From a virus, in the IMG/VR virus record IMGVR_UViG_3300047474_000434, positions 1-25,489 of that record: DNA of 25,489 nucleotides. One strand, written 5' to 3'. Below, piece after piece: positions 1,503 through 18,823 of the stretch. The position numbers and the translations under genes were made by a program. The notes beneath the pieces were generated by a model. The model did no database searches. It was not told where the DNA came from and worked only from the letters and a program-made list of their open reading frames with translations. The stretch's first letter is position 1. Each line of letters starts with the position of its first letter.

Positions 1503-1765
1503 TGTTAAAAATAAGCCAATCTAAAGAATTTAAAAAAGACTTTATACAATATAAAAAAGACATTGATCAAATTACTAATGAACGTGCTAAAGAAAAATGC
1601 AAAGATATTTTAAATAAACTATCTAACGAATATAGTTATATTGATGCTACACACGATGCAATTAATAAATCAATTGATCCTACTAAAGTAAGAGAAAATG
1701 TAGAACGTAGTATTGAACTACGCCAAGAATTAAATAAAATAATTAAATATTCGAAAGATCTTTAA
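1502..1765 (+). CDS. Small helical (coiled-coil) phage protein
   Basis: This 87-residue, highly charged protein is rich in Lys, Glu, Asp and Ile, with no Gly, Pro only at residue 60, and no Trp. Heptad-like spacing of Ile, Leu and Ala through residues 3-50 and 62-85 predicts two long helices, probably a helical hairpin. There is no enzyme motif or membrane segment. Its ATG overlaps the TAA of the cupin gene (TAATG), so translation is coupled to that gene. Its last 23 bases overlap the end of the fibre gene on the other strand. Short helical proteins of similar composition occur beside structural genes in marine T4-like phages; their role is not known to me. Structural accessory or chaperone are possibilities only. 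Confidence 0.68.
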   Translation: MLKISQSKEFKKDFIQYKKDIDQITNERAKEKCKDILNKLSNEYSYIDATHDAINKSIDPTKVRENVERSIELRQELNKIIKYSKDL

Positions 1766-3674
1766 CTGTAATTGATCCAAACATCGAAGAGTGACTTGTA
1801 CATTGATAAACATATGTACCATTGCCGCTTTCAGGAATTCTCCAATATAATGTTCCACTAGACTTTCCTTGTGCAGCACTATTTGTACTTACAGTTCCAG
1901 TTGGTGATACGTGTACTATATTACTAGTCAGTGCAGTAAGAGTGTTGTCTTGCAATTCAAATGGATGTCCTGATATATTTGTTAAGTCAAATGCTAGTGT
2001 GGTTCCGCTGATTGCATATATAGTAGGATTAGTACCACTGTAGTGACTGTTAAACGTATATCCACTAGTTCCAACATTGTCAACTCTCAGCATTGCAATA
2101 GCAGGTTCATAAATTTGATCTATTCTTAACCCAGCTGTTGTAACATCTCCTAAGTCGTCAAAATCACTAGCGCCTGCACTAACTGTACTTGCAATAGTTA
2201 CAGTACTTCCACTTGTGGTTAAACTAATTCCTGTACTGGCATCTAAAAATAACGTAGCAGTAGAATTAACAGCAGTAATAAGAGATTGTCCACTAACTGA
2301 AACATTACTAAATGCGTTTTGATTTGTTTCGCCTGATTGTGCTACCCAGTCAAAGTCTGATCCTGTCCAGCTTAATACTTCACTTGTTGATGCACTAGTT
2401 GTATTAAGATGTGCATTAACATCCGAGTCACTATAATCTCCACCGCTGCCGCCACTTATTGTTGTGAATGTAAATGCGCCAGCACCGTCTGTTGTTAAAA
2501 CTTGTCCGGTTGTCCCGTCACTAATACTTAGATCAGTTAACACTGTTGGTATAGAAGTGCTAGATGGTAATGCATCGGTAATTCCGTAACCTGCTAAAGT
2601 AGTTGGAGTAGTTGTTAGATCATCAAATGTTACACTAGTTAGATATGTACTCAAGTCAGGTGGAGTATAACGGAACACTCCTGTAGTATCATCGTATGAT
2701 ATAGCGCCATCGCCCGAGGCTGTAAGTTCGTTACCAACACTTAAACTTGCCAGTGTAAGTATACTAGGTTTGTTAGTAACGTTGCCCCAGTCTAAATAAT
2801 ATGTTCCGTCAAATCCGTCAAGTGTATCAGCATCTGTTCCACCGCCTCCAGTCGTAGCATCAGAACCTGGTGCCCATTTAGCACCGTCCCACTTTAATAC
2901 TTGTCCAGAAGTTGGCGCACTTGTTGTAGTGTCAACATCGCTTAAAAAGTCAATACTAAATGCACTCATATTAATTGTTACATCGTCTGAGTCTGTAGCG
3001 ATAGCAGTTGCTATGTTTGTACCGCCTAATATACTTAATGTATCTGTCACAGCATCAGCTGTTGTTGATCCGTCATCACTAGTTATAGTAGAAAATAAGT
3101 TCTGAGTTGACCCTGTTTCGGGTGCATCTTCAAATGTAAAGTTGCCGGCACCGTCTGTAGTTAGAATTTGTGTCGAATTACCATCAGTAATTCCTAGGTC
3201 AGTTAGTGCAGCAGGTATTAAATTTGTTGTATCTGTTAAATCAGATAAGTCTGCAGGTATTAAATTTGTTGTATCTGTTAACTCTGATATGTCTGCTACA
3301 GAAGTAAGATCTGCTTGATTAGCAAGTTCTATCCAAGCGCCTGCGTGTGCATAGTATGCTTTACCTGTGCCGTGTACGTGTGCAAACATTCCGTGATTGT
3401 CTGTTGCACTTGGTAAATCTACAAGCTCAGCATATGCTATCCAGTTTATATCATCGTTTGTTAAAGATACTTTTGCAGAAAGTGTTACTTCGTTTACATT
3501 GTCTAGATCTGCTCTTGCTATTTCAAAACCGGCTGCATCTTTACCGCTATATACTCTTAAACTATTAGTAACTTTGTTAAAGAATACTTCACCACTAGAT
3601 CCTACGTTGCGATCTAAAAAATCAGTAGGTCTTGGTATAATTCTTATTCTATCTACAATCGGTGCTGATGACAT
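1743..3674 (-). CDS. Tail-fibre-like protein with C-terminal cupredoxin-like domain
   Basis: This 643-residue protein is rich in Thr, Ser, Asp and Gly, typical of a phage fibre shaft. The N-terminal 95 residues have a compact beta motif (GEVFFNK, LRVYSGKDAAGFE). The middle carries repeated fibre motifs of the type DG-x4-Q-I/V-LTTDGAG-x-FTF (about residues 165 and 395) and G-Q-V-L-K-W-D-G-A-K-W (about 258). A 14-residue tandem repeat (TDTTNLIPA) lies near residues 133-155. The last about 95 residues look like a cupredoxin: H570 in SGHPFEL, then C625-T-S-H628-S-S-M631, the arrangement of type 1 copper ligands (His, Cys, His, Met), with H-x2-M instead of the plastocyanin H-x4-M. The start is the ATG at 3674 with ribosome site AAGGAA and a GATAAATA site 20 bases upstream. 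It probably contacts the host surface. Confidence 0.83.
   Translation of the reverse strand: MSSAPIVDRIRIIPRPTDFLDRNVGSSGEVFFNKVTNSLRVYSGKDAAGFEIARADLDNVNEVTLSAKVSLTNDDINWIAYAELVDLPSATDNHGMFAHVHGTGKAYYAHAGAWIELANQADLTSVADISELTDTTNLIPADLSDLTDTTNLIPAALTDLGITDGNSTQILTTDGAGNFTFEDAPETGSTQNLFSTITSDDGSTTADAVTDTLSILGGTNIATAIATDSDDVTINMSAFSIDFLSDVDTTTSAPTSGQVLKWDGAKWAPGSDATTGGGGTDADTLDGFDGTYYLDWGNVTNKPSILTLASLSVGNELTASGDGAISYDDTTGVFRYTPPDLSTYLTSVTFDDLTTTPTTLAGYGITDALPSSTSIPTVLTDLSISDGTTGQVLTTDGAGAFTFTTISGGSGGDYSDSDVNAHLNTTSASTSEVLSWTGSDFDWVAQSGETNQNAFSNVSVSGQSLITAVNSTATLFLDASTGISLTTSGSTVTIASTVSAGASDFDDLGDVTTAGLRIDQIYEPAIAMLRVDNVGTSGYTFNSHYSGTNPTIYAISGTTLAFDLTNISGHPFELQDNTLTALTSNIVHVSPTGTVSTNSAAQGKSSGTLYWRIPESGNGTYVYQCTSHSSMFGSITVKDLSNI
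3211..3281 (-). repeat. 29-bp direct repeat, 42-bp period, inside fibre gene
   Basis: A perfect 29-base sequence beginning gcaggtattaaatttgttg occurs at 3211-3239 and again at 3253-3281. The 42-base period equals 14 codons and keeps the frame. It encodes two copies of a unit containing LTDTTNLIPA. It looks like a recent in-frame duplication in the fibre shaft, possibly by slippage or unequal recombination. Confidence 0.9.
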
Positions 3675-3694: not shown

Positions 3695-3702
3695 TATTTA
3701 TC
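3695..3702 (-). promoter_or_regulatory. Putative late promoter GATAAATA for the fibre gene
   Basis: Read on the minus strand, GATAAATA differs from the T4 late-promoter consensus TATAAATA only at the first base. It lies 20 bases upstream of the fibre ATG, with the ribosome site AAGGAA between them, leaving room for a short leader. The same octamer occurs before the 2366-residue giant gene. T4-like late promoters use just this octamer with no -35 box. Function here is inferred. Confidence 0.6.
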
Positions 3703-3756: not shown

Positions 3757-4296
3757 ATGACAGATTTAGAAATAATTGATAATTTTTTACCAGTGAATCA
3801 ATTTAATAAAGTCCAACAAGACTTAATGTCTAATAAATTACCTTGGTTTGTTAACGATGATATCGTACATACAGATCTAGGAAATATTGCGTCTAATAAA
3901 AAACACAATTGGCAATTATTCCATCTTTTTTATTATAATCCCCTTATGCACTCTGAATATATTAGTGCTATTGAACCAATATTACAACATCTAAATCCAT
4001 TAGTATTAATAAAAGCTAAAGCAAATACAAATTATGTTACTGAATCAATAGTTGAACACGGAATGCATATTGACATACAAAATCCTGAATTAAAAAGTAT
4101 TTTGACTACAGGAATCTTTTATGTTAATAACAACGACGGTTATACCTTATTAGAAGACGGTACTAAAATTGAAAGCGTAGCAAATCGATTTGTAAGTTTT
4201 CCGACAGAAACTAATCATAGCGGAACAAGTTGTACTAATACTAATCGAAGAGTTGTATTAAACTTAAATTATATTAAACAAACACACAAAACTTAA
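3757..4296 (+). CDS. 2OG-Fe(II) oxygenase
   Basis: This 179-residue protein has the layout of the small 2-oxoglutarate/Fe(II) dioxygenases common in marine T4-like phages. The iron-binding facial triad is visible: H104-I-D106 in HGMHID, and H154 in ETNHSGT. Arg164/165 in NTNRRVVLNLNY is placed to bind the 2OG carboxylate. The segment at 121-149, with YVNNNDGYT, LEDGTKIESVANR and FVSFP, is the double-stranded beta-helix core typical of prolyl-hydroxylase-like members. The family hydroxylates or otherwise oxidises proteins, nucleic acids or small molecules using 2OG and O2; the substrate here is unknown. The ribosome site AAAGGAAAC lies 5 bases before the ATG. It is divergent from the fibre gene and 11 bases upstream of the halogenase gene, so the pair is probably co-transcribed. 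No flavin reductase or 2OG-supplying gene is in the window. Confidence 0.88.
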   Translation: MTDLEIIDNFLPVNQFNKVQQDLMSNKLPWFVNDDIVHTDLGNIASNKKHNWQLFHLFYYNPLMHSEYISAIEPILQHLNPLVLIKAKANTNYVTESIVEHGMHIDIQNPELKSILTTGIFYVNNNDGYTLLEDGTKIESVANRFVSFPTETNHSGTSCTNTNRRVVLNLNYIKQTHKT

Positions 4297-4307
4297 TAGG
4301 AGACTAT

Positions 4308-5744
4308 ATGCACATATGCATTGTCGGTACTGGAGCAAGCGGCTGGATTACAGCACACTTTCTTAAAAATAATCCAAAAATTAAAAAAATTACAATCATT
4401 GGTTCTGATAAAATTCCAACTATTGGAGTAGGAGAAGCAACTACTCACAGTTTTAGAGAGTTTTTATTAAATCGATGCAATTTAACAGAAGAAGAATATA
4501 CAAAATTCTTAATAGATTCTGATGCATCTTTCAAATACGGTGTTAGTTACGAAGGATGGAGTAAGAAGAAATTTTTACACCCGTTTGCTATTGGACAACA
4601 CTTAGGTTACCTATTAGGAAAAAAAGATCCTAATGACAATTATCACAAGTATGTAAGTCCAATACATAATGAAATTTATAATAATAAAGTATATCTTGGC
4701 ACAGATAAACACGAATATTCTTTCCACTTTGATGCTAATAAGTTTATCAATGCAATGACGGAATTAGCTAAATTAGACGATAAGATAACACATATTGTTG
4801 ATACTGTTGTCGAAAGCCAATACGACAATCTAAATAATGTTAGTTGTATTATTACAGATTCAAAGAAAAAAATAACTGCTGATTATTTTGTTAGTTGTAT
4901 TGGATCTCAAGCATTTAATAAAACTATCTTTAATGAAGAATATATTTCATATGACGATATACTTTTAACAAACAAAGCAGTAGCGTGTCCGTTAGCATAT
5001 TCTGATAGAGCAACTCAATCACACCCTTATACAGTAGCTAAAGCAATGCCTAACGGGTGGCGATGGATTACTCCTACATTATCAAGGGTAGGTACTGGTT
5101 ATGTTTTTAGTGATAAACATATAAGCGTAGACGAAGCAACAAGTCAGTTGTTAGATGATATTGGAGATCGAGATCTTATAATTGATCCATTTGTAGTTGA
5201 TTTTACTCCTAGGCGAGTTAAACAAGTTTTTAAATCAAATATTGCTACTATAGGAATGGCAGCTGGATTTTTAGAACCGTTAGACGCTCCAGGGCTTGCA
5301 TTAACTTTAAGGTTTTTAACATTTTTAGAAGATGTATTAGATAATATAGAATCTAAAGATATACAAAAAATAAAGACAATGTTAAATCAAGAAGCAGTTA
5401 TTGATTATAATTTCTTTTGTAGTTTTATTTTACATCAGTATAAAACTTGTAAACGTAGTGACACTGAGTTTTGGATAGATCAAAAAAATGTACAATTTGA
5501 TCCTTATGATGAAATTTTACATCAAGTATTTGACCCTGCAATAACCAAAGACAATACTCCTGTTTATCCGCAGTCTGTAAGAGAACCTTGGATGTTTTAT
5601 AATAGTACTGCTGGCAAAGATATTAGATGGGAAGTAAAAATAGATGAAGACCTTACTGATATTACTGAAACAAAGTTTAATGAAAATTTATTGTTTACTC
5701 ACAAAGAAATGCTCGATAAAATGGTTAAGCAATCTTTAAAATAA
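4308..5744 (+). CDS. Flavin-dependent tryptophan-halogenase-like protein
   Basis: This 478-residue enzyme is of the FAD-dependent halogenase family. The FAD-binding GxGxxG is at residues 7-12 (GTGASG), followed by the family motif PTIGVGEAT at 37-45. The catalytic lysine that carries the hypohalite is K76 in ASFKYGVSYEGW. The signature GWxWxIP appears as GWRWITP at 250-256, with Thr in place of the usual Ile. The FLEPL motif at 321-325 supplies E323, the counterpart of the second catalytic residue. All key residues are therefore present and the length is near normal, slightly short. Such enzymes halogenate aromatic substrates with FADH2, O2 and halide. A cyanophage member (VirX1 of phage Syn10) is known to iodinate diverse small substrates. 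The ribosome site AGGAG precedes the ATG. No flavin reductase gene is adjacent, so reduced flavin would come from the host. The substrate is unknown. Confidence 0.9.
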   Translation: MHICIVGTGASGWITAHFLKNNPKIKKITIIGSDKIPTIGVGEATTHSFREFLLNRCNLTEEEYTKFLIDSDASFKYGVSYEGWSKKKFLHPFAIGQHLGYLLGKKDPNDNYHKYVSPIHNEIYNNKVYLGTDKHEYSFHFDANKFINAMTELAKLDDKITHIVDTVVESQYDNLNNVSCIITDSKKKITADYFVSCIGSQAFNKTIFNEEYISYDDILLTNKAVACPLAYSDRATQSHPYTVAKAMPNGWRWITPTLSRVGTGYVFSDKHISVDEATSQLLDDIGDRDLIIDPFVVDFTPRRVKQVFKSNIATIGMAAGFLEPLDAPGLALTLRFLTFLEDVLDNIESKDIQKIKTMLNQEAVIDYNFFCSFILHQYKTCKRSDTEFWIDQKNVQFDPYDEILHQVFDPAITKDNTPVYPQSVREPWMFYNSTAGKDIRWEVKIDEDLTDITETKFNENLLFTHKEMLDKMVKQSLK

Positions 5745-5749
5745 TGTAA

Positions 5750-6205
5750 TTAGTCTTCTTCAGCACCCTGGTATACTGATATATTAGGATCAACCCAAGG
5801 TTCAGCAACTTTTGCAGCTGGCTGATTAGATATTCCTTCGTGTTCTAAATCCCATTGCCGCGTATCTTCGTTCCAAACATAATACTCGTCATCGTTGTTA
5901 GGAGTAGGTGAAGGTGTCGGCGCTTCCCATTCTATAGTAGAAGAATTAAGCGTCCAACTAGGATACGGCTTTGGCATAATAAATGCATCTAATTCACTAT
6001 TGTATGTATGCCCAATACCGGCATAACAATTTCTAAAGTTTCCATTATAGCTAGTTTGTAGCCAAACACCTTTTAGTCCAATAGATTTGATATAGTGCTG
6101 CCCTATCGGTTCACTTTTAGGAAATTCTTCATTATAGATATCATTGTTATTAATAACAATAACGTCTATTACTTTATTTTTTTTAATTTTAACAAAATGT
6201 GCCAT
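5750..6205 (-). CDS. Marine-phage structural protein with YNGNFR/YAGIGHTY motif
   Basis: This 151-residue protein starts MAHFVKI, contains WLQTSYNGNFRNCYAGIGHTY at about residues 51-71 with intervening charged turns, and has PKPYPSWTLN near 81-90, all hallmarks of a small protein family seen many times in marine T4-like phages and usually annotated as a structural or hypothetical protein. A Pro-rich linker (about 99-106) separates this from a WNEDTRQWD aromatic hairpin and an acidic tail. I chose the ATG at 6205 rather than the in-frame TTG two codons upstream because MAHF is the conserved start and AAAGG lies 11 bases before it. The gene is last in the minus-strand series and its stop is only 5 bases from the halogenase stop. 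Its place in the virion is not known to me. Confidence 0.75.
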   Translation of the reverse strand: MAHFVKIKKNKVIDVIVINNNDIYNEEFPKSEPIGQHYIKSIGLKGVWLQTSYNGNFRNCYAGIGHTYNSELDAFIMPKPYPSWTLNSSTIEWEAPTPSPTPNNDDEYYVWNEDTRQWDLEHEGISNQPAAKVAEPWVDPNISVYQGAEED

Positions 6206-6219
6206 AGTCAACTTTACCT

Positions 6220-7638
6220 TTAGATGTTGTATCTTTTCTTTGCAATCTCATAACTTTTTCTAACATCGCCAGCGGACATTGCAGAACTATAAATTCTAAC
6301 CTGTTTCATATATCCTGTAAAGAAAAAACTAGTACTTTCAGCTCCGATTAGAACGTCACTGCTATCTGCACCGGACCAAGTTCCTGATCCTACTTGTGCT
6401 CCGTCTAAATAAACAACTCCTGATCCGCCACTTCGTGTATAAGTAATTTGGTGCCAATTTCCGTCCCAAGCATTTGTTCCAGCAGCTACGTTACTATTGT
6501 AATTTCCATCTTGTACGCCAATTTGTGTATTTCCGTTATTCTTACCTATAAAGAAATCACCGCTTTTATTACCAGCAAGAGCTTGATAATTTGCGTTAGT
6601 AGATCCGGTATATTTGTATATAAAACTAAATGTAAATCCACCAAGAAGTAATTCATCTGATATGCCAAATCTAGTTGCACAGTGTTCGTTATTACCATCA
6701 AATTGAACCGCTTGTTCGGTATCATTATACACTGGCCAATTTACAGCAGTTGCATCATTTCCGCCTACATAGTCTCTCCATTTATGATGATTGTTGTTTA
6801 GAAGATCTTGTATACTAGGTTCTGTACCATCGCAAACATCAATTCTAGGATCCCAGTATTGTTGCGAGGTTGATGTATTAGTTGAGTAAAATAAGTAACT
6901 TCTATGCATAGCATAAGTAGCACCGTCACGGTACACATAATCTCTACAGTTACCAATTTTATCTCCATTTGTATTATATATACCAGTATGCGGATGATCG
7001 CTTCCAGTTTCACTTCGATAGGGCCAAGTATGTCCTACAAATAAAAACCATTCATTTGCACCACCTGGCCAACCGCCAGAGTAAAAATAAGGATTCGTTG
7101 TTCGGTTGCCGCTTGATCTAAGGTTTACACCATCATTGGATCGTGTACCCATATAAGATGAACCGTTACCTACTACACTTCTTTTCATCCACATACTATG
7201 TCTAGTAAATCTAAAATAGTCAATGTTAACATTACTACTGTTCCATCCACCGTCTGAGTTACTAGCCGAATCGTTGCTCGGTGTGTCCCAAATAATAGCT
7301 GTATTCCCGTGGGGATCAGTTGACCAAATTCTTCTATTTTCTGCGTCTGTACCGTTTCGGCTCCAACCGGTTTCGCTACTATTACCAAGGTTCCAGTTTT
7401 CTATAGGGAGTACCGGGTCTCGCCAATCTCTTTGAAACATTCCTGAATCATATTCAGCTACAAGTGTTTCGGTATTTTCTTCTGTGGGAGTCCAATGGGT
7501 TCCTTGATAAAATTCAACTGCTGATGTTTCTGAATTATATCTTATATCCCCCTGTGCTCCGCTTCGTTGTGTAACATTGCCGGAAGGTAAATTAATAAAT
7601 CCTGAACTGTTAACTACTGTATTTTTTAAAGTTGCCAT
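6220..7638 (-). CDS. Adhesin-like fibre protein: shared leader, jelly-roll middle, LamG end
   Basis: This 472-residue protein begins with a leader (residues 1-50) of the form MA-x-L-x-NT...GF-x-x-LPSG...R...G-x-x-RYN...E-x-Y-x-G-x-x-W that is shared with the next two genes. Residues about 55-290 are rich in Trp, Asn and Gly (WFLFVGHTW, MHRSYLFYST) and look like a beta-sandwich domain of unknown type. Residues about 305-465 fit a concanavalin-like/LamG jelly roll: VQFDGNNEHC, FTFSFIYKY, GNWHQITYTRSGG, VYLDGAQVG, then GYMKQVRIYSSAMS at the end. LamG domains bind glycans or proteins, so host-surface recognition is the likely role. The ribosome site GAGGTAATAG precedes the ATG at 7638. It lies 12 bases after the glycine-rich gene. 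Confidence 0.8.
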   Translation of the reverse strand: MATLKNTVVNSSGFINLPSGNVTQRSGAQGDIRYNSETSAVEFYQGTHWTPTEENTETLVAEYDSGMFQRDWRDPVLPIENWNLGNSSETGWSRNGTDAENRRIWSTDPHGNTAIIWDTPSNDSASNSDGGWNSSNVNIDYFRFTRHSMWMKRSVVGNGSSYMGTRSNDGVNLRSSGNRTTNPYFYSGGWPGGANEWFLFVGHTWPYRSETGSDHPHTGIYNTNGDKIGNCRDYVYRDGATYAMHRSYLFYSTNTSTSQQYWDPRIDVCDGTEPSIQDLLNNNHHKWRDYVGGNDATAVNWPVYNDTEQAVQFDGNNEHCATRFGISDELLLGGFTFSFIYKYTGSTNANYQALAGNKSGDFFIGKNNGNTQIGVQDGNYNSNVAAGTNAWDGNWHQITYTRSGGSGVVYLDGAQVGSGTWSGADSSDVLIGAESTSFFFTGYMKQVRIYSSAMSAGDVRKSYEIAKKRYNI

Positions 7639-7650
7639 CTATTACCTCAT

Positions 7651-8646
7651 TTATACGGGATATCTTATAATAACCACGCCGCTGCCTCCGCTGCCACCTG
7701 CTTTTTGATATGTGGCAGTTCCACCGCCGCCGCCACCTCTGTTTGCTATTGCTGACTGTCCTGGTTCGCCGCTGCCGTGTTGTCCTGTGCCGCCCGATCC
7801 GCCTACGCCGCTTCCACCTTGTCCTACTGGACCAGTGTTACTATAGTTAGGTAGTGGATATACTCCACCTCCGCCGCCGCCGGCGTAGTATCGTAATTGT
7901 CCCGATATCGAAGAAGCAATTCCTGGGCCACCATTGCGACCATAACTTTCTGTTAAGAACCAATAATCTGTTCCGCCTGCGCCTCCGCCACCACCGCCGG
8001 TATTTTGTTGACCGTCTGATTTACTGCCGCCATCTGATCCTTGACCTGCTGTTCCTGCGCCACCAGATGATCCGTTAGACCAATTTTGAGTTCCACCACC
8101 GCTGCCACCTGCAGCGCCACCAACAGAATAGTTTCCGCCTCCGCCACCACCGATTGCTGTTAAACCAAGTGCAGACGAATTACCGCCGTTACCGCCTGTG
8201 CCACCTGGAGATGAATTAGTTGCTGTGTTTGGTGCTCCGCCGCCGCCTACAACAATAGCATTATTTGCTACAGTACGAAATGAAGTACCTTGTAACAGTC
8301 CGCCTGCGCCACCACCACCACCGTGATGTCTGCCGCCTGCGCCGCCACCAGCAACGATTAAATATTCAACTTCCCCTGCACACACTACGTTAAAACTACC
8401 AGCGCCAGTAAAGGTAAATGTTTTGTATCCACCGTGTATCTTTACATCTACTGCTCCAGTTGCTGTTGCTTTGCATTTCTTATCTATACAAATCCAGTTA
8501 GAGCCATTATATAATTCTACATCGTTTATATCAGTATTAAATCGCATATACCCAACTTGTGGATTAGGTGGTCGATCATCTGTTATTCCTCTTGGTAACG
8601 TAAGAGAACCTGTATCATTGATTGTTAATGTATCTAGTGTAGCCAT
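7651..8646 (-). CDS. Glycine-rich adhesin-like protein
   Basis: This 331-residue protein starts with the shared leader (MATLDTLTINDTGSLTLPRG, ending at GSNW near residue 51), then a short beta region to about 92. It then has a long glycine-rich domain (93-331) that opens with VEYLIVAGGG and closes with SGVVIIRYPV. Runs of GGGGG and GG-x repeats alternate with short polar loops, the pattern of glycine-rich domains that pack as polyglycine helices in some phage adhesins (compare gp38 of the T4-like phage S16). That comparison is structural inference. I chose the ATG at 8646 because it forms a TAATG overlap with the stop of the upstream gene, has GGAGGG 10 bases before it, and begins at the conserved leader. 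An ATG 18 bases upstream is rejected. A receptor-binding role is likely. Confidence 0.8.
   Translation of the reverse strand: MATLDTLTINDTGSLTLPRGITDDRPPNPQVGYMRFNTDINDVELYNGSNWICIDKKCKATATGAVDVKIHGGYKTFTFTGAGSFNVVCAGEVEYLIVAGGGAGGRHHGGGGGAGGLLQGTSFRTVANNAIVVGGGGAPNTATNSSPGGTGGNGGNSSALGLTAIGGGGGGNYSVGGAAGGSGGGTQNWSNGSSGGAGTAGQGSDGGSKSDGQQNTGGGGGGAGGTDYWFLTESYGRNGGPGIASSISGQLRYYAGGGGGGVYPLPNYSNTGPVGQGGSGVGGSGGTGQHGSGEPGQSAIANRGGGGGGTATYQKAGGSGGSGVVIIRYPV
8153..8174 (-). repeat. 22-bp copy of a block shared with 9925-9946
   Basis: The 22 bases beginning attgctgttaaaccaagtg are identical at 8153-8174 and 9925-9946. They lie at equivalent places in two neighbouring glycine-rich genes and encode the ALGLTAIG motif. 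The flanks stay similar but diverge at third codon positions, as expected for related genes that have diverged or exchanged segments. Confidence 0.85.
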
Positions 8647-10442
8647 TAGCTGCCAACCCTCCACTTAGTTGCATCGTATATTTGTTTAATTTCTATAGCA
8701 CTTAGTTCTCTAGTATAAACTGCCATAAAATATATCCATCCTTGCCACCTTGTACCAGTATAACCAACTCCGTGTCGTATATCAGTAGTTGCATTTGCTG
8801 TAGTAGGATATCCGCCAGCGTCTGCTGATGTATATAGTGCACCGTTTTTATACCAGTACTGTCTATTCTTAATTTGATTTCTAGTACTGACTATAAATGC
8901 AGTTTCATTAACTGTACCTAAGAAGTTACCGTCGCTGCCTCTTCCAACATAAGGTTGTCCATTAGGTCCGTTGGTTCCAAAGTAGTAACTAACACTTCCG
9001 CTTGGTTCGTGTGTCCAAGTTCCTGAGCCACCATATGACTGATCGTGAAGATTTCTACGTCCAGATAACGTTGTTGGCGTTACCCACATCATAATAGTTT
9101 GAGCTCTTGAAAAGTCCATAGTTCTTGCATTATAAGGAACTGTAAGGTTTGAACTACCGTCAAAATACAATCCGCCGCCATTTTTACCGTCTTTTCTTAA
9201 ATATCCGTTTGAGAAAGTAGCGTGATTACTATTGCCACTTAAATCTCTAATTGTTCTGTTTCGCCACTTTTCGTCATTTAGACAAATGTGTTTACTCATA
9301 TCAAATGCATATACTAGGCCTTCCTTAGAAGCACCATATAAATTATCAAGTTCTATTTGGCCGCCGTCCAATACTCCAACCTGTCCAGGATCTCTTTTGT
9401 ATCTTATAACTACAATACCACTTCCGCCAGCACCACCTGACGATGCTGAGCCGCCAGATCTACCGCTGCCACCTCCGCCACCACCTGTGTTTGGTTGTCC
9501 ATCTTTTCCTGTAGGCTCTACTGCGCCATCATATATATCACTGGCACCTGTACTAGCACCGTTATTGGGTCTATCGCCGTAACCGCCGCCACCTTTGCCG
9601 CCGTTTCCAGGTTGAGCATTGCTCGAGTTACCGTGAACTCCGCCGCCACCGCCGCCTGAATACCAAATTTGAGCACCAGTTATTGCACTTGGTTTACCTA
9701 TGCCGCCATCGCCTGACTTAGTTGCTGTCCAATCTTGGCCAGGTCCCCCTGCGCCACCTCCGCCACCTGTTGGGTATCCGTTTGTACTTGATCCTCTCCC
9801 GCGACCGCCATTAAATCCTTGGCCTGCTGTTCCTGCTGCGCCTGCTGGACTGTGTCCTTCACCACCTCCTGAACCGCCAGATCCTGCATCGTATGTACTC
9901 CAAGATCCACCTTTTCCGCCGCCTATTGCTGTTAAACCAAGTGCAGTCGAGTTGCCGCCACGTGTTGCTCTAGGCATTCCGCTATAGCTGCCTGGATTAC
10001 GTTCTCGTGTACCTCCAGCTCCTACTGCAATAGGATAGCTTCCTGGAGCTAGATCCATTTTTCCTGATAAGAAGCCGCCGCCTCCGCCGCCGCCTCCAAC
10101 CCAAGCGCCACCGCCACCACCACCAGCAACGATTAAGTATTCAACTTCTCCAGCTTGTGTTACGTTTAAAGTTCCAGCGCCTTGTTCGTTTGTAAATACG
10201 TGTACAGTATATGGAACACCATTTTCTACTATATTATAAGTTTTTTCTGCTCCGGAAGCCGATGCTTGTATACTACCATCTGTTTCTCGCCATTGACCAT
10301 TAGTGTAATACTCTAATTGATTTAAAGTTGTATTGTATCTTACGTATCCTTCCACAGGACTTCCCGGGCGTTGAGCAGTTGTTCCCGAAGGAATAGTTAT
10401 AAATCCCGTATCATCAATGTTAGTATTTTTTAGTTGTGCCAT
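8646..10442 (-). CDS. Adhesin-like fibre protein: leader, glycine-rich domain and LamG
   Basis: This 598-residue protein combines modules that its neighbours carry separately. The leader is residues 1-52 (MAQLKNTNIDDTGFITIPSG, then RYNTTLNQLEYY and GQW). A glycine-rich domain spans about 98-350, opening with VEYLIVAGGGGGG and closing with SGIVVIRYKRD, very like the 331-residue protein downstream. A concanavalin-like/LamG domain spans about 375-595: GLVYAFDMSKH, DLSGNSNHATF, GGLYFDGSSNL, QTIMMWVTPT, then WIYFMAVYTRELS. It most likely recognises a host glycan or surface protein. The start is the ATG at 10442, 3 bases after the stop of the S74-domain gene, with a weak GAAGAAA ribosome site that suggests coupling. 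The stop overlaps the next ATG. Open frames on the opposite strand here are mirror images of the GGN codons. Confidence 0.82.
   Translation of the reverse strand: MAQLKNTNIDDTGFITIPSGTTAQRPGSPVEGYVRYNTTLNQLEYYTNGQWRETDGSIQASASGAEKTYNIVENGVPYTVHVFTNEQGAGTLNVTQAGEVEYLIVAGGGGGGAWVGGGGGGGGFLSGKMDLAPGSYPIAVGAGGTRERNPGSYSGMPRATRGGNSTALGLTAIGGGKGGSWSTYDAGSGGSGGGEGHSPAGAAGTAGQGFNGGRGRGSSTNGYPTGGGGGAGGPGQDWTATKSGDGGIGKPSAITGAQIWYSGGGGGGVHGNSSNAQPGNGGKGGGGYGDRPNNGASTGASDIYDGAVEPTGKDGQPNTGGGGGGSGRSGGSASSGGAGGSGIVVIRYKRDPGQVGVLDGGQIELDNLYGASKEGLVYAFDMSKHICLNDEKWRNRTIRDLSGNSNHATFSNGYLRKDGKNGGGLYFDGSSNLTVPYNARTMDFSRAQTIMMWVTPTTLSGRRNLHDQSYGGSGTWTHEPSGSVSYYFGTNGPNGQPYVGRGSDGNFLGTVNETAFIVSTRNQIKNRQYWYKNGALYTSADAGGYPTTANATTDIRHGVGYTGTRWQGWIYFMAVYTRELSAIEIKQIYDATKWRVGS
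9925..9946 (-). repeat. 22-bp copy of a block shared with 8153-8174
   Basis: This is the second copy of the identical 22-base block, in the glycine-rich domain of the 598-residue gene. A further near-identical stretch (around 8347-8375 and 10127-10155, encoding EVEYLIVAGGG) shows that the two genes share DNA-level similarity in several short blocks. Confidence 0.85.
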
Positions 10443-10445
10443 TAC

Positions 10446-11300
10446 TTATTTCTTCAACTCATCTATCTCTAGTTTTAAACTTTTAATTGCTTCAATTAAA
10501 TAAGCAGTTAGTTTTGTATATTTAATTCCAACAACATCATTGTTTGTATCACGAGTAACTAACTCCGGTAGTACTTCTTCAGTCCATTCTGCAATCAGTC
10601 CGCTTTCGTGTTCGTTATTATCTAATCTATCATAAGTTACGCCACGTAAATTTAATATACTAGTTAAAGCATCTTGTATTGGATTGATGTTTTCTTTAAG
10701 TGCAATACTTGAAGTTTCAACAATACTTACAGCAGTTACCTGACCACCAAAGCCAGCTCCACCAGTCACTACCAATGCTCCAGAGGAAGTTGAACTAGAA
10801 GCAGTACTTGCTGAAGCTCTTAACTCAGCAGTAGTTAATCTGCCAGGGTTTGGTACAAAGTTTAGTCTGCTACCATCTGCTACACTTAGTGTATCTTCTG
10901 TCCCAGTAGTACCATCGGACATAGTAATATAGTAAGTACCATTATCTGCTGCTGTTCTATTTGTAACTGTTAGTGAAGGTGCTGTCCAACTTAAAGTGCC
11001 GCTACCGTCTGTTTGTAAAACATTACTTGCTGCACCGTCATTTGCTGGAAATGTTAACGTATAGTTACCAGCAAGTGCTGCTGGGGCTTTAAGAAGAGCA
11101 TAATTAGTATCGCCGTCTCCTAATCTAATACCGGCATTTGAACTGGTGTATAAATCTTTAGTAAATTCTGTAACACCTGTACCATCAGGTGCTAATACAA
11201 TATTTGAATTAGATTCACGTGACGTAAATGTGTTTGTTGATGTAGAAAGACTTCCCAAAACCTGTCCACCTACTACTCCTGATGTAATTTTTCTTGGCAT
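10446..11300 (-). CDS. Fibre protein with C-terminal Peptidase_S74 intramolecular chaperone
   Basis: This 284-residue protein has a Ser/Thr/Gly-rich fibre part (1-190) containing GIRLGDGDTNYALLKAP, NVLQTDGSGTLSW and GALVVTGGAGFGG, motifs common in phage fibres. Residues about 195-284 match the Peptidase_S74 chaperone domain: S197-S-I-A-L-K202-E-N-I, then LRGVTYDRLDN, ESGLIAEW, and a helical end IEAIKSLKLEIDELKK likely to form a trimeric coiled coil. In this family a Ser/Lys dyad spaced S-x4-K cuts the chaperone off after it has guided trimerisation; S197 and K202 have that spacing. The usual S-D-x-x-L-K has Ser instead of Asp here. The ribosome site AAGGAAGAAAC precedes the ATG. It follows the 111-residue gene after 10 bases. 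Unlike most S74 fibres the body is short. Confidence 0.87.
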   Translation of the reverse strand: MPRKITSGVVGGQVLGSLSTSTNTFTSRESNSNIVLAPDGTGVTEFTKDLYTSSNAGIRLGDGDTNYALLKAPAALAGNYTLTFPANDGAASNVLQTDGSGTLSWTAPSLTVTNRTAADNGTYYITMSDGTTGTEDTLSVADGSRLNFVPNPGRLTTAELRASASTASSSTSSGALVVTGGAGFGGQVTAVSIVETSSIALKENINPIQDALTSILNLRGVTYDRLDNNEHESGLIAEWTEEVLPELVTRDTNNDVVGIKYTKLTAYLIEAIKSLKLEIDELKK

Positions 11301-11310
11301 TGTTTCTTCC

Positions 11311-11646
11311 TTATGTAGTTGCTGTTTCTATACCGTAAACCATAACTGATGTATTAGCCTGCGATGAACGTGCATAGATTTGTCTACTAGCATCAATTAC
11401 TACACCAGTTCTTTCTAGAACACCGTTTGGTAGTATTTCTGTTTCGTATTCCAAATAGTCATCTGCTACTGGTAAAGTTGCGCCAGTTGGGTCTGTTTTA
11501 GCTATAGCCAATCTAACTGTAATGCTAGTTGAGTTTTTGTTGCATATACTTACCGTAGCTACACTAAACGTAGTCACCGGTACCAAATATATTGGTGTAT
11601 ATGTTGTAGCAGCTAAATCTGCTGATCCTAATATTCCGTTTGCCAT
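11311..11646 (-). CDS. Small beta-sandwich-like structural protein
   Basis: This 111-residue protein begins MANGILGSADLAATTYTPIY and consists mostly of alternating hydrophobic strands (VATVSICNK, ITVRLAIAK, YLEYETEILPNGVLERTG, IYARSSQANTSVMVYGIE). It resembles the 109-residue protein encoded at 25121-25450 in length and in the order of strands: an N-x-T/S turn, a strand with Y-x-x-x-T/E-x-x-LP, and a late RSS motif. Both are probably small beta-sandwich proteins linked to the fibres, but no function can be assigned from sequence. The ribosome site GGAG lies 9 bases before the ATG. It sits 20 bases downstream of the 2366-residue giant gene, and a GATAAATA octamer is present inside the end of that gene. 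Confidence 0.72.
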   Translation of the reverse strand: MANGILGSADLAATTYTPIYLVPVTTFSVATVSICNKNSTSITVRLAIAKTDPTGATLPVADDYLEYETEILPNGVLERTGVVIDASRQIYARSSQANTSVMVYGIETATT

Positions 11647-11666: not shown

Positions 11667-14600
11667 TTATCTCAGGAAGTAGTTGTATGCTAAAGGTAAT
11701 CCTAATACTGATCCATTAAACACTACATTTGCATTTATATTTATCGGACTTCCGCTTAGTGTTGTTATAGTGTCGGCTCCGATAAATATGTCACCTGCTG
11801 TTACGCTGTTAACATTCAATGTTGCACCACCACCGCCAATTTGTGACTCAATATATGCTTTAACTGCACGTTGTGTTGGTACTACCGAATCACTATTTGC
11901 AGTAAAGAACGGATCTGTACTAAATTCCGTAACACTTGCAGAGTTACCACCTAGTGTAACTTCTCCCAATGAAAGTTCTTGTAGTCCTGCAATGTTAAAT
12001 GCATCAGCATTCAATGTTGCAACACCAGTTGATTGTTCAATAGTAAACAAGTCACCAACTCTAAAGTTACCATCTTGGTCTGTAGCAGTGTAGAACACTC
12101 TACCACCGTCAAAGTCGCTAGTTTCTTTTACTTGATCTGGTGCGTTAAGCGGCACTCCAGGGTAATTAGTATCAGTAAATCCGCCTGTACCAATATCTAA
12201 GAAATCGTGTCCTGTTAAACGCACTTGTGAGAACCTAATACGTAACTCTACAGGATCGCCATCTGGTAAATCATCATCTACTGTTATACTAGGCGATATC
12301 TGTAAGAAAGCGGTATAACTTCCATCGTTTGTTCCTAAGAAACTTACTATATTAACTAGTTTATAGAACTCTCCTGGTAAGCTCGCAAATTCTACATTAG
12401 AGCCGTTTACTGGACGACTAGTTAATCTACGTACAGCAATAAATGCTCCAGCTTGCGGGAAGTTTGCATTACCGTTTGAGGTTACTGCATTTATTTCTGC
12501 TGTTGAACTTGTAAATCCTGTACCTCTATTATTGAATGTTGGATTTGCTAGAGCACCGTTACCAATTTGTGGTACTAGTACAACGTCATCAACATTGTTA
12601 GGATCTGTTATAGTTATTGTTGGCGCACTTGTATAGCCGCTTCCTGGTTCTGTTATTCTAATAGCAAAAATTTGTTCATTTGCTACACTTGCTCTACCTT
12701 TTGCAGGTGTATTAATTTTTGCATATTTTCCTGCTGTTCCTGCTCCTGGTAGTAACATTACAAATTTACCTTCTTGTGCAGGATTACCAAATGCTATTGC
12801 ATTAAATCCACCTGTAGTAGCTGTTCCAGTTAATGTATATGACTGCCAGTACAATCCATCGTGACTATATTGAACTTCGTCAGTATCATCACTTGAAATA
12901 ACAAATGTACCCTGTCCGTATGCTATTTTACGTTCTGTAGCAGTTAGTGGAAGTGTAAGTGTGTTTTCGTACCAAGTAACACCGTCTAGTGAGTACATAA
13001 TACCATTAGTTCCGCCTAGTGCTACAAACTTACCATTACCCCATACAATATCTGTTACTGCTGCAAAACTTGCCGGAGCTGTTACGCCTGTCCAACTAAT
13101 TCCATCTTCAGAATATGCTGCACTTGTAGTTCCGCTGTTAATAGCAACAAACTTACCTGCGCCGTATACCATTTCACCAAATCCATTTGCTGGAAGTGCT
13201 GTGCCAGTTATGCTCCAAGTTTGGCCACCATTGTCTGAATATGCAACATCTTGATCTGCGTCACTAATAACAACAAATCTTGCTGTAGCAGCAGCAACTT
13301 GACCAAATGCTATAGTATTTTCACCTGTTGCATTAAACGATCCTGGTAACGAACTAGTTGACCACGTATCTGCATCGCTTGAGTAAGCAACTGTGCCGTC
13401 GCCGTCTGCAATTAATACTACTGCACTGGGTTGGAATGTACTCGAGCCATCATCTTGTAAACCGTCTGCAATACTTGCCCAATTTCCGCTTGGTAAAGTA
13501 GGTAATACTTCTGAAGTCCAAGTTTCGCCATCAATACTTACTGCTCCATTTGTTCCAGCGCCAACTGCAAGGAATTTTCCTGCTTGTGCAGTTCCTGCAA
13601 GATCAAAATCTACAATAGCACCTGTTACACTGTTTACTGTTGTTACAGTTATTGTAATATCGTTAGCTGTAGTGGCTCCGCCAACGTCTGTACCTACAAT
13701 AGTTAATGTATCAAGTCTTGAATACCCTGTACCTACTGCACTAGAAGTTACATAATATTTACTTCCGTTACGAGTAACATCAAAAGTTGCTCCAGAGCCG
13801 TTGCCACCTGTGTGACTTATTCCTGTATACTGTGCTGCTGTTTGAATCCATTCAACATCATACCAAGTAGTTGATGTTGGCATTGTAATACTATTGCTTG
13901 AGTTAGTTGGAGCAGTGATTGTAACTCTTGGTTCAATTTGGTATGTTGATGAACTGTTAGGAGCAACAATAGGTGTTCCTGGAACTACGTGATCCCAGCC
14001 TGCAACACCATCTGATTCTCTTACAACTGTTGCTTCTTTAGTACCTGCATTGTATGTGTTAATAATTGCATACTGTCCTATACCAGCAGCACCTATGATA
14101 TAAATTTTCATTCCTGGGTATGCTGAACTTAATGAACCGTCTGTTGCACTTAGGAATATTCCTGTTGCACTACCACTTTGTGCAACGTTACTTGATATTA
14201 CATACCCGCTACCGCCTAGTGCAATATCTGGGTTTGCATCTTGATCAACATAAGCATAGTTAAATGCTCCATCACGGAATTCATTTGCAACTACTACTTC
14301 ATTAGACCCTGGGCCAAATATATCAAGAGTAGCTTCAGTATAATCATTACCTGCGTGGGTATATTCAACTGATAACAGTTTTACATTATCTGTATTAACT
14401 TGTCCAATAGTTGCATTATACTGTGTGCGGTTGTCAACTACTGCTGTTACAGCAGTTTCATCTGGATCAACTCCTGTTGCTACGGAACCAAAGTCACCAT
14501 ATGAGTTGTTACCGTTTGTTGCACGTACTCTACCACCTGTTTCTGCAAGATAGCCAATGTGTGAGTAATATGTAAACACTGATACAAGTTCTGCTCTACC

Positions 14601-17600
14601 ATTGTTAAGAATGTGTGCGCCAATACCGTCACTTATAACCTGTGTAAAGTCATTTGACACCATTGAGTCATTGCCGCCATTGTGTAATGCTCCGTCAATT
14701 TTTTGTCCAGTTGCTGCATTACCAAATGTTGTAACACCTTGTATGTATGGTGAACGTGTAATAATCCAAGTACGGAAATCATCTGGACCCCAACCTGGAT
14801 CTAACGAGCAATATGCTCCTGCACTTACTTTACTATAATTAAATGCATTTTCTGGTAACAAGTCACCTTTTAATCCGTTAAGAGTACAGTTTCTTACACC
14901 TGTAGCATCTCTAAGGTAGAACATATCTTCTTCTTGCGATCCTGTTACACTGTTATTGTAGAAACGTGCAACATATCTTGAAGCATAATTTCCTGTCCAC
15001 ATCAAATCATATTTTAACGCATCGATATAGTAATCAACATCTCTAGCACAAAGAACTTCGTTATATGTATAACCGTTCCAAATGCTGCCGCTTGCTGCAC
15101 CGGCAATTTGAACATCAATCCAAGCTGCAATTTCAGCTTTTATAAAGTCTCTATTACGCTCTAACTGTAGTTTTGCATAATATCTATTTTGGTCTTCAGT
15201 TGCACAAACAGCACCTTCATTAGTTGCTCCAAATAATACAGCATCAATAATTCTTGCACTTGCTGTTATTCTTGCAATAGCTGTTGCGTCACTTGCAACA
15301 TTTGCAATAGCACCATCAGTTGCATCTAAGAGTGCATATTGAATTGCTTCTCTAGTTTGTTTCTTCTGGCCGCCTGTGTATACTTCTATAGCAGTTTTAC
15401 GCAAGTATGCGTGTGCTGCTTTAAGTGTTCTGTAGTTACTATTTAAAGCAAAGTCAAATCCAACTGCTTCTAATATCTTACCAACGTCTCTTTCACACTT
15501 AGCACTATTATAAACTAAGTCCGGATAGTTAGCTGTAATCCAAGCAGTTGTATCAGTTTTAATTCCAGCTGTAGCAGTGTCTAATGCACCTTTAGCAGCA
15601 ATTAATGCTGTAGTACTGTTAACACCGTTTGCTAGTGTTGGATTAACAAGTGTAGTTGTATCGCCAACTGCATCTGGTCCGTTGTTAATAATATCAATAA
15701 TATCTTCTACATTATCTGCAATTTCAGTAATACTACCTACATTACCAGTTTCAACTTGTAGTATTGTTGTTTGTTTAGGATTTGCAATATTTGTATTACC
15801 TGCTACACTTTGTGCTGTAGTTTTTAAATAGTTAATTGATGCAACACATTCTGTTTTTAGAGAAGCAGGAAGTTGATCATATGTTTCATCGTCGCCATCC
15901 CAATACGACAATCCAGCTATTACAGCCATTGAATTGCCGCCATATGTTAAGTCATAGATTAACGAATCAATAATAAATCCAGTATCACGTCGACTGTCAG
16001 TTTTTCCATATTTTAGTGTTGGATATTCTGTATCTAAGAACGCAATTACTTCTGCTTTTAAGAAGTCTTTGTTTACTATAAGATTTTCTCTAGCATTTTC
16101 TAAAATTGAACTATAGCCTGTAGGATCTGTATAGTATCCTGCACTCATAGTTTTTAGTCCGTAGTCAATTTGATATTTCATCATATCAACTAGACTTTCT
16201 ACAGCATTTTCTTGTGTAGTTACAGCATATGGCCAGTTTTGATCTTGTGGCTCAGTATTACCAGTACTAGCAGTTACAGTTGTTCCTACAACAATGTCTC
16301 CAACTACTTCGGCAATTCTGTCAAACGTTGCTACGGTGTTTGGAGTATCTGTTGACGGTGTTGTTTTTCCAGCGGCAATAACCTTTGTCGAACGCAGTTC
16401 GTCACCTAGTATAGCACAATATGCCGGTACTCTAATTGGTAGAACTTCGTAATGTTCTCCTGTAGATACTTTAACTAGTGTTTGAGGTACATCACGAGCT
16501 GGAATTTCGCTAGTATCACCTGCTGTAATTGTATCTGTAATTATTTTAACTAAACTTTGTATTTTAGTATATACACCTGTTTCTGATACAAGCGTTGTGC
16601 TTGTAAATTGATCAACAATTGCTGTACTATCATCTGTAACATTTTGATAAATTGCGCTCGGTGCTTCATTTTTAAGAATTGCATCAACAACAGTTAGCAT
16701 ATAATTGTATGCTGCAACTGATTGTGCAGATTCTGCTGCTAAGCCTGCACCACCGTATGGTTTATCTTCTGATGCAGCTGAAAATTCGCCATCTGCACTA
16801 AATCCATTTACAAACGAAAGTGCTGCTGCTCTTGATTTCAAGTTGCCGCCGTGGCTAATATCCCATATTAATCTATCAACAATATTTCCAACGTCACGTT
16901 TACACTTGTCTTCACCGTAAGTAAAATTATTCCAAATACCTGATCCACCTGCATTTGCAATTTGATAGTTAATCCAAGATCCAACTTCTTCTTGTATAAA
17001 GATTCTGTTTAATTCTAACAAATACTGTGCATTAGGATTCTTCGGTCCTTGCTCAATTTGTTCGCAAGCATAACGTATTGATTTAAATGGTCTATCAACA
17101 CTACCACCTGATTCCGGAAACGGTCTATCAATACCGTGTTCTGACACATAATAAATGTCTTCAATAGTTTGTAAAAACTCCCAGTCAGGAATTCCTGATG
17201 CTCCTACTGTTAATACTTGCCCTTCTAAGCCAACTGGTAGTCTTGTTGGAGCACTACCGCTATAATAAACTAAGTCACCAGCTGTAGTAAGGACACTAGC
17301 TTCTGAACCAACTGCTAGAACACTCCAATACTGTCCACTATCTGCTAAGTCTGGGCGTGAACCCTCGTTGCCGCCGCCTGCTCCTACTAGAGTTGCTGTT
17401 GAGTAATCGTCACCTTCTGATATATGATATAAAGTACAGTAGTAGCTGTTGTCTCCGTAACGAACAACGTCACCTTCGTAATATTCTTGATCGTCTAACC
17501 ACTCGCCTCTCCAACGGAATCCTTCATTAACTAATTTCCAATATGTTGGGTTAGGTGGTTGCTGTCCTTCTTCGTGATCTAAAATACATAAGTAGGTAAA

Positions 17601-18767: not shown

Positions 18768-18794
18768 TTTTTATTCCTACTTGCACGTTATGTA

Positions 18795-18802
18795 TATTTA
18801 TC
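18795..18802 (-). promoter_or_regulatory. Putative late promoter GATAAATA for the 2366-residue gene
   Basis: GATAAATA on the minus strand lies in the 56-base gap between the two giant genes, 27 bases before the ATG at 18767. It differs from the T4 late consensus at one base and is identical to the octamer at 3695-3702. A small palindrome (ATCATATTATGAT, 18800-18812) overlaps its upstream edge. No terminator hairpin is visible in the gap, so read-through from the upstream giant gene is also possible. Confidence 0.6.
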
Positions 18803-18823
18803 ATATTATGATCTCTTTGTTTT

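Follow-up and report, generated by a model that had tools for sequence, protein, structure and literature searches.

A halogenase-oxygenase cassette at a viral tail-fibre locus and its tentative assignment to the tailoring of fibre proteins

Introduction

What would a halogenase do among the tail-fibre genes of a virus? The question is raised by an IMG/VR virus record of 25,489 bases (the window, by which we mean the whole stretch that was analysed), in which genes for a 2OG-Fe(II) oxygenase and a flavin-dependent halogenase stand side by side between genes for tail proteins. The reaction chemistry of both enzyme families is established. An initial annotation of this DNA had proposed that the two enzymes may act on the same substrate, for example a host metabolite, a signal or an aromatic residue of the virion or of the host.

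The covered parts of three papers (PMC3037559, PMC10452541, PMC9146016) name both viral halogenases and 2OG oxygenases, each on its own, among the genes of cyanophages. The phage halogenase VirX1 (CPUG_00131 of cyanophage Syn10, PDB 6qgm) is well studied in vitro, where it halogenates many free aromatics according to the covered part of a review (PMC8407142); the portions of this literature that we covered do not name its native substrate, and those of the cyanophage papers offer only a guess of antibiotic protection. In the parts of the literature searched, to which most subscription papers and all preprints did not belong, we found nothing on a link between halogenases and fibre adhesin loci or on their pairing with 2OG oxygenases. 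The enzyme families are known, and their recurrent arrangement is one for which we found no description in that literature.

Results

Layout of the cassette and its flanks

Both cassette ORFs were confirmed on the plus strand, the oxygenase gene at 3757-4296 (179 aa) and the halogenase gene at 4308-5744 (478 aa). The 11-base gap between them (4297-4307, plus strand), as first annotated, holds by its coordinates and is overlapped by a likely ribosome-binding site of the halogenase, AGGAGA, judged by eye. The flanks consist of minus-strand tail proteins, and the earlier observation that the cassette faces opposite to the fibre genes on both sides is borne out. On the left lies a 643-aa fibre connector identified by its match to phrog_677 (1743-3674). 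On the right, a 151-aa protein matching phrog_7759 (5750-6205) is directly convergent with the halogenase and is followed by a LamG-domain fibre protein found by Pfam (6220-7638, 472 aa) and by two adhesin-like fibre proteins identified as Gly_rich_2 in the domain scan (7651-8646, 331 aa, and 8646-10442, 598 aa), all on the minus strand. The nearer of the two Gly_rich_2 genes is 1.9 kb from the halogenase. Two giant proteins, 2366 and 1970 aa long, are encoded at 11667-24736; they contain CBM_5_12 modules in repeated copies and are presumably fibre or tail-tip proteins. A trio at 723-1765, on the same strand as the cassette and assigned by Pfam and PHROG matches, comprises a Nudix gene, a cupin gene (phrog_7851, 'cysteine dioxygenase') and an 87-aa ORF of unassigned function; it lies behind a sheath/baseplate gene, whose match in two PA5oct-like records has a Nudix hydrolase listed beneath it.

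The GC content of the cassette is 29.8%, compared with 38.0% for the window and 42.2% for the fibre block at 5750-11646. Measured against the related contig L004, dN/dS is 0.11 for the halogenase and 0.10 for the 2OG gene; both are under purifying selection and therefore do not constitute a chance pair of ORFs. A late-promoter-like ATAAATA site stands upstream of two fibre genes, with a site of the form GATAAATAC near 3701, upstream of the fibre connector gene; a search of the window revealed no such ATAAATA site upstream of the cassette. The consensus behind these calls is the one that we take to be that of late promoters. The remark that no flavin reductase is adjacent agrees with our scan, which detected none among the scanned window proteins (a partial gene at 1-714 and a 111-aa ORF at 11311 excepted), and no biosynthetic partner gene was seen among the same proteins.

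The halogenase

The halogenase (4308-5744) was identified by Pfam (PF04820, 234 bits against a cut-off of 21), by PHROG (PHROG_2928, E 2e-85), by its residues and by its predicted structure. The catalytic residues K76 and E323 are invariant in all 52 aligned viral halogenases and the GxGxxG motif is present, so that the assignment of both catalytic residues and an FAD site stands. At 251-256 the protein reads WRWITP, with the threonine for isoleucine noted earlier; both tryptophans and the proline are retained, and the strict WxWxIP signature is absent. The latter occurs in 88 of 129 distinct viral halogenases and WxWxTP in 19 of them, so the threonine is not unique to the window protein.

The predicted model (mean pLDDT 85.8, pTM 0.88) is of low confidence from about residue 90 to 140, close to where part of the substrate pocket should lie, and in the C-terminal region. 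It superposed on 2wet with a Z of 40.5 (457 residues, rmsd 2.7), and nearly all of its residues were matched by PyrH and SttH (Z 40.5), PrnA (39.8), the lanthipeptide tryptophan halogenase MibH (36.7) and VirX1 (35.7). A model devoid of a substrate pocket or halide site, named at the outset as a possible refutation, gained no support from this match along the protein or from the conserved lysine and glutamate, within the limits set by the low-confidence pocket region. By sequence and model the window protein belongs to the flavin-dependent halogenase family PF04820, any halogenating activity being putative. It shares the family and the whole fold (Z 39.8-40.5) with PrnA, PyrH and SttH, but is only 24-25% identical to them and is devoid of their Trp4 substrate motif. 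With VirX1, likewise a phage flavin-dependent halogenase, it has in common the catalytic lysine and glutamate and the lack of a Trp4 motif; it differs in identity (23-24%), in length (478 versus 530 aa) and in having WRWITP in place of WxWxIP. VirX1 was the top PDB match of a viral halogenase profile (A4), at 554 bits, the next scoring 465. In a FastTree phylogeny the window halogenase falls outside the VirX1 clade on a deep branch, the deep placement being weak, and within a three-row branch with those of contigs L004 and L056 (support 100). The L056 protein is its nearest distant relative, at 42-43% identity. Relatives were found in 64 phage records, all below 60% identity.

The Trp4 motif is tied to tryptophan binding in the covered part of PMC8269204, which also places VirX1, MibH, KrmI and BrvH in group C, without the motif. 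Searched with the group A and B patterns given there, none of the 129 distinct full-length viral halogenases, the window one included, contained it. The window halogenase is, by this motif, of the non-tryptophan type. A published proposal, as it appears in the covered parts of PMC9964418 and PMC2984593, makes free tryptophan the chlorination substrate of the phage enzyme and invokes antibiotic protection; for the 129-protein set this proposal is not supported by the Trp4 motif.

The 2OG-Fe(II) oxygenase

The oxygenase (3757-4296) was assigned from its residues, its fold and its PHROG match (PHROG_274, E 1e-44). In 32 of 32 aligned relatives H104, D106, H154 and R165 are invariant; the ligands H104-x-D106 and H154 of the initial annotation are upheld, and its undecided R164/165 resolves to R165. 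The PF13640 score (20.2 bits) lies under the cut-off of 27, and the superfamily assignment is accordingly made from residues and fold. The prolyl-hydroxylase-like model (pLDDT 89.8) matched PHD2 best (Z 16.0, 143 residues, rmsd 2.6), then the PHD of T. adhaerens (Z 15.6) and the P4H of P. putida (Z 15.0). The window protein has the HxD..H..R arrangement of PHD2 and of the P. putida P4H but is only 13-15% identical to them, the likeness being one of predicted fold and ligand residues. PHD2 entries crowd the list of PDB matches, and a common fold does not reveal the substrate. As modelled, the protein is closest to protein prolyl hydroxylases, and protein proline is a candidate substrate. A profile of the 2OG proteins, compared with PDB sequences, returned repeat-protein noise only. 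Relatives occur in 253 phage records, all below 60% identity. According to the covered part of PMC12774648, 2OG proteins that resemble human EGLN3 are common in phages. Collagen in the tail fibres of viruses comes up in a Baltic virus paper (PMC9301287, likewise in part) where a viral prolyl 4-hydroxylase is discussed.

Phage proteins under PHROG_274 carry the label 'DNA endonuclease V' and are of the same family as the window oxygenase (E 1e-44). Set against the 2OG signature in the 32 aligned relatives, the label is, on sequence grounds, a misnomer; no Pfam family for a pyrimidine-dimer glycosylase domain was detected in the window protein at E up to 0.1. The same product name appears on genes of these loci in the records of S-SSM7, S-H38, Sf-FP1 and Sf-FR1.

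Conservation of the gene pair

The exact pair is found in the window and in four further contigs, among them L004, whose cassette is 94% identical. A sixth contig, L010, has the 2OG gene (84% identical) between the same Nudix-cupin and fibre flanks, abutting the LamG fibre gene, with both the halogenase and the phrog_7759 gene missing at that place. The pairing is not obligatory, because L010 keeps the 2OG gene without the halogenase there. In L056 the halogenase is 2.1 kb from a 2OG gene of the PHROG_274 type.

For a wider sample we took the best 80 of 588 IMG/VR loci by the viral halogenase profile, which left 71 after dereplication at 80%. A motif-bearing 2OG gene was the direct neighbour of 40 of the 89 halogenase genes that had both neighbours in view, and of 34 of 69 when one halogenase (the first) was counted per locus. 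Among the remaining genes in these loci, those lying 2.5 kb or more from the halogenase adjoined a 2OG gene in 11 of 75 cases (P 4e-5 against 40/89); the looser controls gave 28/144 at 1.5 kb and 61/285 for all other genes, with Fisher P values of 3e-5 to 5e-5 across controls for all halogenase genes. Halogenases stand directly beside a 2OG gene 2-3 times as often as the other genes in their loci do, and the ends of such halogenase and 2OG neighbours often overlap. The close PHROG_274-type gene was the direct neighbour in eight of the 71 loci, in seven of them on the same strand. A lack of conservation of the pair in related phages, named at the outset as a refutation, is not borne out at family level: adjacency recurs above local controls, and the exact pair in the window and four contigs, although L010 is without the halogenase.

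More than one halogenase was present in 19 of the 71 loci. Up to five were counted within 39 kb of L112 (record G021), and other loci also hold several per contig, which suggests a diversification of substrates. A family of about 250 aa, which occurs in 21 of the 71 loci, is exemplified by L080:2476-3228, a match to the functionally unassigned phrog_7084. The phrog_7759 gene is found in 15 of the 71 loci besides the window. We rejected it as an obligate partner or substrate of the halogenase, since none of seven relatives outside the near-identical group (6-10 kb each) is accompanied by one, and we rejected its union with phrog_1787 into one family (profile comparison, probability 0.1).

Isolates were sampled as 26 phage records, and tests were run on 19 genomes with 24 halogenase clusters. 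W11 (taken from coordinates and scores as a near-duplicate of W13) and the fragments W15, W17, W18 and W23 were left out, and W25 and W26, which have no halogenase, stood outside the tests. Counts of 2OG genes here are among the matches listed, weak ones being missing. On that basis 9 of the 24 clusters had a 2OG gene within 1 kb (null 3.3, P 0.003) and 14 within 3 kb (null 5.8, P 0.0005); within 300 bases there were 2 (null 2.3), a distance at which closeness is understated as matches end short of genes. Among the same listed matches, the control gene talC was near a 2OG gene in 2 of 16 cases at 1 kb (null 1.9) and 9 of 16 at 3 kb (null 3.7, P 0.0025), and hli in 4 of 16 at 1 kb (null 1.5, P 0.05). 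Because these controls are also enriched, the isolate signal is in part a general clustering of accessory genes. Closeness to 2OG genes in isolates does not, in our view, prove a function, given the talC enrichment at 3 kb and the lack of enrichment at 300 bases.

Association with fibre adhesin genes

In the 19 isolates a Gly_rich_2 gene lay within 2 kb of 10 of the 24 halogenase clusters, against a null mean of 0.94, and none of 5000 shifts reached as many. At the same distance the controls talC and hli each scored 0 of 16 (hli 1 of 16 at 5 kb). The remaining 14 clusters were not near an adhesin gene. In IMG/VR contigs of at least 30 kb the association was again seen, in 8 of 27 clusters within 2 kb (null 3.2, P 0.003); this test covered 24 contigs, without L061, which duplicates L060.

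Nine distinct isolates (W01, W03, W06, W13, W16, W20, W21, W22 and W24) have in common the gene order adhesin, phrog_1787, halogenase. The VirX1 locus of Syn10 presents Gly_rich_2 fibre genes, a phrog_1787 gene, two halogenases and then a run with several 2OG oxygenases; the VirX1 gene is downstream of the fibre genes, whereas the unit in the window is convergent with them. Matches to phrog_1787 without a halogenase at that place were seen in S-B64, S-RIM2, metaG-MbCM1 and Syn1 (a weak match). S-RIM2 and metaG-MbCM1, chosen for their 2OG genes, have no halogenase at all, and in metaG-MbCM1 a PHROG_274 gene is near fibre genes. Other settings also occur: the L056 halogenase is 33 kb from a Gly_rich_2 match and, by eye, 3-4 kb from psbD- and psbA-like ORFs, and the halogenases of S-PM2, Syn1 and S-MbCM6 sit among hli, talC or psbA genes.

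The adhesin association is, at the level of sequence, the strongest sign of a possible role at the fibre. Halogenases beside adhesin genes in many phages suggest that some phages may chemically decorate their tail tips.

The ends of four aligned fibre proteins (window 1743-3674, C-terminal 114 aa; L004 5436-7367; L010 3952-5562 and 5575-7005) all carry CxxHxxM, with GHPF upstream in three of the four. Copper-bind (PF00127) matched three of the four below threshold (E 0.02-0.05). A cupredoxin-like copper site on the phage tail is possible.

Affinities of the virus

Among the matches listed, two sheath/baseplate proteins of L004 were 31-38% identical to those of PA5oct-like phages, Atu_ph07, Phosso and Salicola jumbo phages, and 9 of the 72 records in one such match set were Synechococcus phages. 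By these sequences the tail proteins of the virus are, among the matches listed, nearest to jumbo myoviruses, and we set aside a cyanophage origin of the window. Both cassette enzymes and a fibre piece have cyanophage or pelagiphage relatives, the fibre piece matching Pelagibacter phage Mosig and S-CAM phages.

Discussion

As judged from gene neighbourhoods, the cassette is one instance of an arrangement widespread in phages, with halogenases beside 2OG oxygenases and often near genes for fibre-tip adhesins. The most likely explanation is that it is an oxidative tailoring module of the fibre locus that modifies side chains of fibre or adhesin proteins; we hold it tentatively, at somewhat under even confidence, with host metabolism and unlinked cargo as serious rivals. 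Of the substrates proposed initially, the aromatic residue of the virion gains support from the adhesin association, and the earlier reading is to that extent sustained.

In such a module the oxygenase and halogenase genes would form a small transcription unit. A host reductase would supply reduced FAD, which with O2 and halide would give a hypohalite or a haloamine at K76; E323 would position an aromatic ring to be halogenated by it. The oxygenase would hydroxylate a side chain with 2OG, O2 and Fe(II). The likeliest targets would lie in the fibre or adhesin proteins that the phage itself encodes; modification of their residues could alter the binding or the stability of the tail tip. Counted against a role at the fibre are the opposite strand, the lack of a late-promoter-like site, the deep branch outside the VirX1 clade and the context of L056; in addition, the 2OG fold also serves small-molecule enzymes.

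The enzymes may instead modify the host's free small molecules during infection (an aromatic metabolite, a pigment, a signal or an antibiotic-like product), as an auxiliary metabolic cassette for which the fibre neighbourhood is incidental. The breadth of VirX1 toward free aromatics in vitro, in the covered part of PMC8407142, is consistent with this, as are the photosystem-gene-like ORFs around the L056 gene, the hli, talC or psbA surroundings in S-PM2, Syn1 and S-MbCM6, and a unit set apart from the fibres by its strand and by the lack of their late-promoter-like site. We consider it rather unlikely, in view of the lack of a biosynthetic partner or a flavin reductase among the scanned window proteins, the absence of the Trp4 motif and an adhesin association that talC and hli do not have in common.

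Fibre loci might also gather unrelated accessory genes, in which case the two enzymes would be independent and their adjacency meaningless. That L010 has the 2OG gene alone between the same flanks, that the two genes are 2.1 kb apart in L056, that the cassette is AT-rich and that talC too is enriched near 2OG genes at 3 kb all fit such hotspot cargo. It is nevertheless unlikely, as local controls adjoin 2OG genes 2-3 times less commonly than halogenases do, the gene ends often overlap, and the association with adhesins is absent for talC and hli.

A flavin enzyme that does not halogenate, for example a monooxygenase, is very improbable: the altered WxWx(T)P motif (WRWITP), the divergent C-terminus, the low confidence of the C-terminal and pocket regions and the long branch would suit it, but K76 and E323 are kept, the fold is full, selection is purifying and threonine holds the same motif place in 19 of 129 viral halogenases.

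Returning to the tailoring of fibres, the adhesin- and hydroxylase-like gene neighbourhood makes the question of what a viral halogenase is for directly testable. A broader claim, that the fibre-tip loci of several phage lineages encode dedicated enzymes which halogenate and hydroxylate the phage's own tail-fibre adhesins, is at present doubtful. If it is true, VirX1-type halogenases would have adhesin modification as their native role, and phages would have a chemical route to diversify receptor binding beyond sequence. Post-translational chemistry would then be a layer of phage host recognition.
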